From Roseiflexus sp. (GTDB lineage: Bacteria; Chloroflexota; Chloroflexia; Chloroflexales; Roseiflexaceae), in assembly GCA_017743475.1 (NCBI GenBank), contig JAGHYV010000001.1, forward strand, positions 186,001-250,000: a stretch of 64,000 nt of DNA, read 5' to 3'. The position numbers and the translations under genes are program-made. This document shows positions 40,975-46,605 of the stretch, piece after piece; position 1 is the stretch's first letter, and every line of letters begins with the position of its first letter. The notes beneath the pieces were generated by a model, which was given only the letters and a program-made list of their open reading frames with translations, made no database searches and was not told the DNA's origin.

Positions 40975-41282
40975 AAAGCTCTTAGCTTTACGAGGCGAAG
41001 CCTGCCTGCGTGAGACAGAATCGTGCGCCCTACTCCAGTAGCGGGAGAGACGCCCTCTCAGGTGCGCGCGCCTCCGGCGCGCCACACCGACAGAGACGCT
41101 TCAGCGCCGCAGGGGCTTCCACGCGCTCAGGGAGAGCTGATCGAAGATTGCGAATTCAGTATGCGCACTAGCCGTCGGGCTCAAGCACTCAGCTACCCAG
41201 GGCGAAGCCTGCCTGCGCGGGCTAGAGCAGTATCATTACTCAAAGACCATCAGCCCGCACCCTCTCTCGTTTCAGGCATCAG

Positions 41283-44813: not shown

Positions 44814-44937
44814 GCGCTGACCTAACGCACTCCGAACGCAGGTGGGGGAGAGTGAGACAATGCGCATGCTCCTCTCTCCCATCTCCACTGCGTCGCTGAG
44901 GATAGCACGCTCCCCAGCGTGCGTCAAGATTGCACAT

Positions 44938-45057
44938 CTGTGTAAGAGTTCACATTTCTCCAGGGAACGAGGGCATCTTGCCCTAGCAGACGGCGACGAG
45001 GGCGTCCCACCCTCGCTCCCAGGCGCGTGTGTTACCCCAGGTGTGAACAGTTACACA
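44938..45057 (+). repeat. MITE-like dispersed repeat, copy B
   Basis: Terminal inverted repeats TGTGTAAGAGTTCACA at the left and TGTGAACAGTTACACA at the right. The interior contains GAGGGCATCTTGCCCT and GAGGGCGTCCCACCCTC, each a short palindrome. It is homologous over its length to copy A (inverted) and copy C. Confidence 0.8.
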
Positions 45058-45091
45058 TTTGACGAGTATCTGACAGTACACGGGACATCGT

Positions 45092-45526
45092 ATGACTCGC
45101 ATCGTCCTGATCCTGATCCTGACGGCTTGGTTGCCTGCATGTACACTCCCCACGCCGCCACAACCGACAACCCCGCGTCCGACAGCGCCGGTCATTCTTG
45201 AAATCACTCCTGCTCCGACGCTAGATGTAGACGCTACCGCGACCGCATACGCTACATTACTCGTTCCCTCACCGACACCGACCGGGTTGTACATCGTTCA
45301 GCCGGGCGATACACTAAGCGAACTGGCAATTGCATTCGGCACGACAGTTGCCGAGATCATGGCTGCCAATGGCCTGACCGATCCTGACTCACTGCAGGTC
45401 GGGCAACCACTGATCATTCCCTCGCTGGTGGATACATTGCCATCGCTGCAGGCAACGCCAGCCATTAATGCAGGGACGACAGATCAAACTCCTATACCTG
45501 TTACCCCGACACTGGCGACCCCGTAG
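45092..45526 (+). CDS. LysM-domain lipoprotein
   Basis: 144 residues. The signal peptide TRIVLILILTAWLPAC ends in a lipobox (LPAC). A Pro/Thr-rich linker of about 50 residues follows, then one LysM domain (GLYIVQPGDTLSELAIAFGT, then NGLTDPDSLQVGQPLIIP), and a Pro/Thr-rich tail. LysM binds peptidoglycan or other N-acetylhexosamine polymers, so this should be an envelope protein with a glycan-binding head. Confidence 0.85.
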   Translation: MTRIVLILILTAWLPACTLPTPPQPTTPRPTAPVILEITPAPTLDVDATATAYATLLVPSPTPTGLYIVQPGDTLSELAIAFGTTVAEIMAANGLTDPDSLQVGQPLIIPSLVDTLPSLQATPAINAGTTDQTPIPVTPTLATP

Positions 45527-45544
45527 CGACCCCCGGAAATGGCG

Positions 45545-45573
45545 CTTGACAGGCGAAGCGATTTTCGGTATAT
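45545..45573 (+). promoter_or_regulatory. Near-consensus sigma-70 promoter
   Basis: TTGACA, exactly 17 bp, then TATATT. This is the best promoter in the window; predicted start at about 45580. Confidence 0.75.
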
Positions 45574-45616
45574 TTGCAACGTCAATCCTTCAAAATTGCC
45601 GTTCAGGCGTAAAGGA

Positions 45617-45691
45617 GGTGATGCCCATGAGTAATAAGCGTGAGGGCATCACCGTCGAGGTGGTACAATAACCCCACCCATGGTGATGCCC
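45617..45691 (+). promoter_or_regulatory. Three-segment alternative pairing (attenuator-like)
   Basis: GGTGATGCCC (45617-45626, part of the ribosome site), GGGCATCACC (45644-45653, inside the ORF) and GGTGATGCCC (45682-45691, after the stop) are exact 10-mers. Segment 2 can pair perfectly with segment 1 (17-nt loop, hiding the ribosome site) or with segment 3 (28-nt loop, freeing it), never both. A terminator follows after 9 nt. Confidence 0.65.
45627..45671 (+). CDS. 14-residue peptide ORF
   Basis: MSNKREGITVEVVQ. It has an ideal ribosome site for its ATG. KREGITVE faintly recalls the N-terminus of IF-1 (KKEGIEVEG), but nothing follows. The ribosome would disrupt pairing segment 2 while translating. 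Confidence 0.45.
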   Translation: MSNKREGITVEVVQ

Positions 45692-45700
45692 AAGGCAAAC

Positions 45701-45730
45701 AAAAAACCCTCGCAGTTGTGAGGGTTTTTT
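45701..45730. terminator. Bidirectional intrinsic terminator
   Basis: AAAAAACCCTC and GAGGGTTTTTT pair across GCAGTTGT. It ends the short transcript on the plus strand and rplY on the minus strand, 19 bp after the rplY stop. Confidence 0.85.
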
Positions 45731-45748
45731 GATTCCGGGAAAAGAAGA

Positions 45749-46405
45749 CTATTCTTCTTCCTCTTCCTTCGACTCGCGGCGTTCGCGCACCAGTTCCGGC
45801 TCGGCTGGAGTTTCGGCTGCTGCTTCCTCTTCTTCACTTTCAGCAGCGCGCGTATGCGCCAGACCCACCACCAGTTCATCACCAGGGGTCACCAGCGTTA
45901 CGCCGGGCGGCAGCGTCAGATCGCGCGCATGAATACTTTTGTCGAACGAATCGAGCATACTAACATCGACCGTAATGTGAGCAGGGATCGCGGTTGGCAG
46001 CGCGCGGATTTCGACTGCGCTCAACGCCTGGTTTAGCACTGCTTCGCCACTTTCGACAAGCGGCGACTTCCCTTCGATATGGATCGGAATGGCCACCTCC
46101 ACCTCCTCGCGCAGATCAACCGCGCGGAAATCCGCGTGAATAATATTGCGCGTCACCGGATGGCGCTGCAGCGCATGGATGAACGCTGTGAGCGGCGGAC
46201 GACCAGCGATATGCAGTTCGATCAGCGAGGTGCGCCCGGCCCGGCGATAGATCGCCTGGAAACTGCGCGCATCGACCTGCACAGCAATCGGTTCAACGCC
46301 TTTTCCATAGACCGTCGCTGGTAGAATGCCGCTGCGTCGCAACCGTTTGACCTTCTTGCCCAAAACCAAACGCGGTTCGAGCGATAGTGTGAACTTTTCT
46401 GACAT
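45749..46405 (-). CDS. rplY: 50S ribosomal protein L25, long Ctc form
   Basis: 218 residues. The L25 domain ([38 protein letters not shown], then [16 protein letters not shown]-like [20 protein letters not shown]) binds 5S rRNA. The C-terminal TL5 domain ([20 protein letters not shown], then [20 protein letters not shown]) marks the Ctc/TL5 type. It ends in an acidic low-complexity tail ([16 protein letters not shown]...EEEEE), common in this group. It is monocistronic with a shared terminator. Confidence 0.95.
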
Positions 46406-46575
46406 ACTAAAATCGATGCTCCTAATCGTGTTGCAAATACCTTCGCCTCAAGCTAAGGGCATTGCCCGGTAGCTCCAGGATGCGCATTGTACTATACCGC
46501 GCGACGAGATGCAAACCAGGGTCAGCGAAGGAGAGAGGGTAGAAAGTAGGGAAGTAGAAAGTAGAAAATATGGGC

Positions 46576-46605
46576 TTGACAAGAACAGGTGTGTTATGTA
46601 ATAAT
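46576..46605 (+). promoter_or_regulatory. lexA promoter with a putative SOS box in the spacer
   Basis: TTGACA at 46576-46581, 18 bp, then AATAAT. The spacer begins with AGAACAGGTGTGTT (46582-46595), which agrees at 11 of 14 positions with the Gram-positive SOS box CGAACRNRYGTTYC. Binding there would block RNA polymerase, as expected for LexA autoregulation. Confidence 0.5.

Follow-up and report, generated by a model that had tools for sequence, protein, structure and literature searches.

The window is the whole stretch of 64,000 nt of Roseiflexus DNA analysed here. Read directly, it carries a promoter, a perfect Shine-Dalgarno (SD) sequence of 12 nt, an open reading frame (ORF) of 14 codons, three short segments called 1, 2 and 3, and a terminator, placed between a LysM gene and a ribosomal protein gene. 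All parts of the unit had been named in a preliminary description of this DNA, and all were found in place. The features of the locus are as follows:

45092..45526, + strand: LysM-domain lipoprotein-like gene (Pfam LysM, E=1.7e-16), the upstream neighbour, not in the unit
45546..45574, + strand: sigma-70-type promoter TTGACA-17-TATATT with 11/12 consensus matches (TTGACA 45546-45551; 17 nt; TATATT 45569-45574)
45598..45608, + strand: small 5' hairpin element GCCGTTCAGGC (CCGnnnAGG), with conserved columns
45611..45622, + strand: extended SD AAAGGAGGTGAT, nearly invariant in an alignment of 42 sequences
45617..45626, + strand: segment 1 GGTGATGCCC, pairing with segment 2
45627..45671, + strand: ORF of 14 codons, MSNKREGITVEVVQ, with ATG at 45627 and stop codon TAA
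45644..45653, + strand: segment 2 GGGCATCACC, inside the ORF and complementary to segment 1, its complementarity with both partners being kept
45682..45691, + strand: segment 3 GGTGATGCCC, past the stop codon and complementary to segment 2, part of a long 2:3 hairpin in the full-length fold
45700..45731, no single strand: intrinsic terminator hairpin, whose T-runs serve both sides (the L25 gene too)
45749..46405, - strand: ribosomal protein L25/TL5 gene (Pfam Ribosomal_L25p, TL5_C), the convergent neighbour, not in the unit

Transcription of the unit probably starts near 45581, and a promoter scan of 44900-46600 listed no - strand promoter over the unit. The earlier claim of a compact transcription unit is borne out in the homologous loci, where a promoter with at least 9/12 matches lies within 75 nt upstream in 108/164 loci (2.4% of shuffles) and a terminator-like hairpin lies downstream in 128/162 (10.5% of shuffles). 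These signals show the unit, on sequence grounds, to be a gene of its own, with its own promoter and terminator.

The SD AAAGGAGGTGAT is complementary in 12/12 bases to GGCTGGATCACCTCCTTT, which is found in multiple copies in 3/4 related genomes. Judging from their sequence and copy number, these copies are probably the 3' ends of 16S rRNA; in the genome of the window itself, the model search returned no 16S gene. Only 2 places in this genome of 4.97 Mb have AAAGGAGGTGAT followed by ATG. The spacing between GGAGG and the start codon is 8 nt in 125/149 loci. The 5' element is seen in most class members, and its CCG and AG fall in columns of the 42-sequence alignment that vary little or not at all. 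In the class, the conserved CCGnnnAGG(G) stands directly before the SD. Its counterpart GCCATCCT in a divergent group, which we call Anaerolineae-type from its sequence divergence and presumed taxonomy, can pair with the SD, and this extra 5' helix is paired in 96.2% of cells over ten sequences.

By DNA search alone, 40/60 relatives were seen to carry the unit, their common core consisting of segment 1, the start of the ORF and segment 2. A covariance model, R1, built from 42 sequences out of these relatives, detected the unit in 136/158 genomes of the class, including 89/93 good ones, almost always as a single copy. In one genome (G127) two copies of the unit adjoin on opposite strands (L176 and L232). 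In a sample of 400 Chloroflexota genomes, R1 gave 84 positive genomes at E<=0.01, a broader model, R2, gave 137 at E<=0.001, and a model of the Anaerolineae type, R3, gave 42, all by E-values that are rough. Since the R2 and R3 runs had the same settings and the same number of good genomes (307), they were taken to cover the same 400 genomes; 29 genomes were common to both lists, where the two matches always coincided in position, and 13 were added by R3. Thus, about 150 of the 400 sampled genomes, roughly one third, would carry the unit, a figure that may miss weak members or include chance among the weakest matches. Inspection of the weak R2 and R3 matches in the phylum covered 20 weak or divergent R2 ones, which were fetched; 17 of them, many of which carry an entirely rewritten segment 2, have the full layout, and the other 3 lack it. 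Scanning the genome collection for the exact pattern, which demands a near-perfect segment 2 and reaches only such members outside the phylum, gave 33 matches, 32 in Chloroflexota and one in Ectobacillus antri. The latter lies inside an apparent coding region and was taken as chance. A chance origin of the unit itself is excluded, because it is conserved across genomes.

The loci used below were derived from 154 aligned matches, from which 5 without a qualifying ORF (4 reverse-strand matches and one real locus, L162, with its stop lost) and 1 duplicate were dropped, leaving 148. Adding 17 weak matches from the phylum gave a set of 165 loci; L274, L275 and L282 were left out for an unconvincing layout, and L159, L160 and L165 were likewise left out of the distant set.

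The surroundings of the unit vary, as judged from ORF calls that were made mechanically. A LysM motif lies upstream on the same strand in 48/158 loci and in none in the three other orientations, and the L25 gene is convergent in 27/165 loci, too few for an obligatory partner. Both are present in 14 loci, which belong to the window's family and to more distant families of the class. The order LysM-lipoprotein > RNA > < L25 is seen in the window and in L128, L136, L145, L214, L231 and L240; most other loci have other neighbours, among them a 23S rRNA gene beside the unit (L139, 2827-5001) and a tmRNA gene within about 1 kb of it (L267, 119-490). Because near and distant families of the class share it, this order suggests that LysM > RNA > < L25 is ancestral there. 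It had also been noted earlier that no gene follows the unit on its strand, and this holds. In the window, no + strand gene follows until an ORF at 46570, which from its sequence we take to be lexA-like, about 0.84 kb on and past the convergent L25 gene; over 74 loci, the next downstream gene (ORF of at least 120 aa) is a + strand gene in 34 and a - strand gene in 40. Some clades locally share a same-strand downstream gene (e.g., 8 loci with one protein family), and none common across clades was seen, deep branches included.

In the 42 sequences, 1:2 forms standard pairs in 99.8% of 420 cells, while slid controls reach at most 60.2%, and three pairs are changed on both sides. Segment 1 hardly varies, and segment 2 changes almost solely to letters that still pair through G-U. 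Segments 2 and 3 are paired in 93.6% of 420 cells; two-sided changes affect 6 pairs and 38 cells, counts that include inherited changes. Beyond the order, both partners shift together: segment 1 GGTGATGCCCGGA goes with segment 2 TCCGGGCGTCACC in L134, GGTGATGCTA with TAGCATCAC in L141, and GATGCGA with TCGCATC in L140. The anti-SD codons read CCTCC in L153, L158 and L161, and in distant classes segment 2 is rewritten (e.g., GCATCCCTCCTC) and still pairs with its own SD. The cognate 1:2 duplex has a mean of -19.3 kcal/mol vs. -11.5 kcal/mol with the ORF shuffled (n=148). Among ten sequences of the Anaerolineae type, 92.7% of 2:3 cells pair, two-sided changes being seen in 6 pairs, and 91.5% of 1:2 cells pair, slid versions reaching at most 68.5%; this 1:2 pairing stands only slightly above shuffles, 52/500 of which reach its pairing percentage and 22/500 its two-sided pairs. 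As far as the alignments tell, both pairings are maintained by two-sided changes. The segments, which had been presented as mutually exclusive, are therefore co-conserved, and the loss of co-conservation that had been named as speaking against them did not occur. The same comparisons show that the ORF codons of segment 2 can act as an anti-SD for their own RNA, from which segment 3 can take segment 2 away.

The folding of the RNA was modelled at two lengths. The 157-nt RNA of the window has a z-score of -6.67 against 200 shuffles, none of which is as stable, and the fold of 45582-45731 has a z-score of -7.49. When it ends at segment 2, the window RNA folds as 1:2, while the complete RNA folds as 2:3 plus the terminator, with the SD sitting in a weaker 5' helix. 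The 2:3 hairpin coexists with the terminator at full length; the terminator hairpin is separate and therefore not the alternative fold. As modelled, the window RNA itself is a clean switch from 1:2 to 2:3. Of the 165 loci, 155 reach at least 5 expected 1:2 pairs in an RNA truncated ahead of the stop codon, and 155 reach at least 5 expected 2:3 pairs at full length; the mean number of 1:2 pairs falls from 10.0 in the truncated RNA to 3.9 at full length. A strict switch, in which all three conditions hold together, is predicted in 65/165 loci vs. 39/495 shuffled controls and fails in 100/165. The earlier statement that 2:3 frees the ribosome site thus stands in part: 1:2 does yield to 2:3 in the folding, but the SD core is on average not freed in the full-length RNA, the mean unpairedness of GGAGG at equilibrium being 0.31 in the complete RNA vs. 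0.38 in the truncated one. This is because the 5' UTR can also pair with the SD, and such a competing 5' helix, seen in the window fold and in the Anaerolineae-type alignment, speaks against a simple release of the SD.

The ORF is kept as a reading frame. Of 154 alignment rows, 149 have an ORF of 12-24 codons preceded by an SD at 6-12 nt, and four of the five that fail are reverse-strand matches. The first stop codon falls at codon 12-18 in 162, 9 and 6 of the 165 loci for frames 0, +1 and +2, respectively, in loci that were chosen for a frame-0 ORF. In the 42-sequence alignment, the distance from ATG to segment 2 varies by multiples of three. Three loci, L071, L119 and L162, have the usual stop codon mutated; in two of them the ORF extends to 21 and 24 codons, and in one it runs longer. 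The end of segment 2 lies a median of 15 nt before the stop codon, and in the Anaerolineae type the anti-SD codons lie only a few nt before it. The peptide, of 12-24 aa and a mean GRAVY of -0.07, is far less stable in sequence: pN/pS is 0.91 before segment 2, 0.84 within it and 0.62 after it (353 non-independent pairs), and the second half differs between classes (GIT.., CTTSE.., AASLLK, RAASVRSR). Translation thus seems to be kept and the peptide product not. Since the reading frame is kept and the amino acids are not, we think that the selected trait may be ribosome engagement.

Codon choice in the ORFs is also unusual against a background of uncurated long ORFs. The stop codons of the 165 loci are TAG in 115, TAA in 44 and TGA in 6, compared with TGA 55, TAG 44 and TAA 27 in nearby long ORFs. 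AGT makes up 238/340 Ser codons vs. 526/5,278 in long ORFs, an excess of about 21-fold, and at least one AGT is found within codons 2-6 in 153/165 loci. The excess of AGT and the rarity of TGA may reflect RF1-type termination, a need for U-ending purine codons, or the avoidance of structure. The likeness of the peptide to the N-termini of IF-1 raised the idea of a partial infA copy, which was rejected: the genome's one match to the eIF-1a family lies elsewhere, and no homologue examined runs on into an IF-1-like protein.

The unit was compared with known RNA families and systems. With Rfam 15 at the gathering score, no family was found in 45500-45760, and window-wide only a CRISPR repeat was matched (CRISPR-DR28 direct repeat, 41201-41224, + strand, 35.6 bits, just above the gathering threshold, a single copy listed). 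On six loci from six families, Rfam 15 matched only the neighbouring LSU rRNA and tmRNA. Below threshold, the hairpin and terminator part matched Leu_leader with 31.4 bits (gathering 50) and Phe_leader with 24.5 bits (gathering 55). The leaders of erm and cat genes, such as ErmC, have a short ORF, a strong SD and mutually exclusive segments, and the position of the ribosome decides which hairpin forms; the masked SD belongs to the downstream gene. The unit resembles them in that its ORF overlaps one of several mutually exclusive segments. However, its masked SD is the short ORF's own, no regulated same-strand gene lies directly downstream, and where such leader peptides have a conserved sequence at which a drug makes the ribosome stall, there is no conserved peptide across the phylum. 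The trp, leu, phe and his attenuators consist of a leader-peptide ORF, alternative hairpins and a terminator at the end, all of which the unit shares in layout. In contrast to them, its terminator is not an alternative fold, no operon comes after it, and, AGU Ser excepted, it has no series of codons for a single regulated amino acid. The mRNAs of hok-type toxins have metastable, mutually exclusive folds. Similarly, the unit is a stand-alone small mRNA whose nascent and full-length folds are predicted to differ and whose SD can be masked, but its peptide is not hydrophobic and drifts, the promoter scan of the locus pointed to no antitoxin RNA, and the unit is a nearly universal single copy in the class. 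SgrS/SgrT is an example of a dual-function sRNA that encodes a small protein; the unit is likewise a compact, sRNA-sized gene with a short ORF, which here, unlike in SgrS/SgrT, itself carries the anti-SD; no region for pairing with a target was recognised in the unit. Another structured RNA of the phylum is the Chloroflexi-1 motif (RF01698), reported from Chloroflexus aggregans (PMC2864571), and the Rfam 15 scans gave no match of it to the unit. Among the open-licence papers brought up by literature searches, no title or opening of an abstract describes the RNA studied here. By its sequence, the unit belongs to a new Chloroflexota RNA family, which is defined here by the SD, the short ORF, the 1:2 and 2:3 pairings, the terminator and a stand-alone position, with a terminator detected in 128/162 loci and a promoter in 108/164.

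Several explanations can be weighed against this evidence. The unit might be a conserved micropeptide gene, that is, a tightly controlled mRNA whose product of 12-18 aa works as a peptide. The ORF is intact in nearly all loci, the promoter and SD are strong, and distant classes again show a Ser-rich start (MSS-, MDSS-, MSD-), but pN/pS is near 1 early in the ORF, the rewriting of the second half between classes tracks the pairing and not the peptide, and the encoding of Ser by AGT points to nucleotides or decoding rather than to the residue. We regard this explanation as unlikely; the self-regulated micropeptide of the preliminary description accordingly keeps its ORF and is otherwise weak, because the amino-acid sequence drifts nearly as fast as silent sites. 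A base-pairing, dual-function sRNA, in which an exposed segment regulates other mRNAs in trans and the ORF serves as a gate, would agree with a stand-alone unit that has a terminator and is kept while its neighbours change, and the alternative folds could show or hide a seed. What makes it rather improbable is that near-invariance is confined to the purine-rich SD, which would naturally pair with the 3' end of 16S rRNA, and that segments 2 and 3 vary between clades, which a fixed target would not permit.

The classical layout of a short ORF, mutually exclusive hairpins and a terminator could instead be a leader or attenuator of the erm or trp type that lost its gene or moved away from it. This is very improbable given the separate terminator hairpin, the mixed strands downstream and the lack of a conserved downstream gene, with no shared same-strand one in the deeper branches seen; the relocated leader proposed earlier is thus unsupported, because the downstream strand is mixed and no same-strand gene is shared across clades. 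A type I toxin mRNA of the hok kind with metastable folds would also be a small mRNA with its SD masked by alternative structures. Its chances are slight, since the peptide of 12-24 aa has a mean GRAVY of -0.07 and no conserved sequence, and the class mostly has one copy per genome. Finally, the locus may hold no RNA device at all, only an inverted repeat and a bidirectional terminator between the LysM and L25 genes. The terminator is usable from both sides, and L25 is convergent in part of the loci, but most loci have other neighbours and yet keep the SD, the ORF and the three segments, so that this reading is barely credible and is refuted by conservation at unrelated positions.

The explanation that we prefer, to which we give about an even chance, is that the unit would be a stand-alone regulatory micro-mRNA of phylum-wide occurrence that carries a ribosome-operated switch; what counts would be its translation and not the peptide sequence. 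While segment 3 is absent, in a nascent or 3'-shortened RNA, 1:2 would form and mask the ribosome site. Once the RNA is complete, 2:3 would form and 1:2 would mostly be lost. A ribosome reading the ORF would break 2:3. By textbook ribosome footprints, one that has reached the stop codon would in most lineages have just passed segment 2, which would then be separated from segment 3 and free to close 1:2. In the Anaerolineae type, the anti-SD codons are nearer to the stop codon and would be covered, so that this geometry of the terminating ribosome is not universal. The closed 1:2 would hold back the next ribosome, admitting one ribosome at a time; the translation of the RNA would be self-limiting, and its fold would switch with ribosome traffic. 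Furthermore, the RNA may act in trans through the ribosome, by binding 30S subunits or by reporting initiation and termination. Such action, rather than a functional peptide, is our preference, unproven and the least certain step. As a wider and tentative proposal, which we consider possible but doubtful, the mechanical input of the RNA may be the translation of a peptide with next to no meaning, and its output may act on the ribosome itself, as a tunable 30S trap or as a sensor of initiation and RF1-type termination.

The RNA is nearly universal in the class Chloroflexia, occurs in several other Chloroflexota lineages too, and is absent from Rfam 15. It is a defined, short object of about 150 nt, with three segments and one ORF, in cultured bacteria, and it comes with a deep natural alignment that shows one segment rewritten on several occasions while constrained by two pairings. 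Elements of the attenuator type would here control the RNA's own short ORF. If the wider proposal is true, the unit would be a leader-type switch without a cis target, of which we know no example. Its layout, that of an attenuator without a gene to attenuate, raises the question of what a ribosome-driven RNA switch can do alone.
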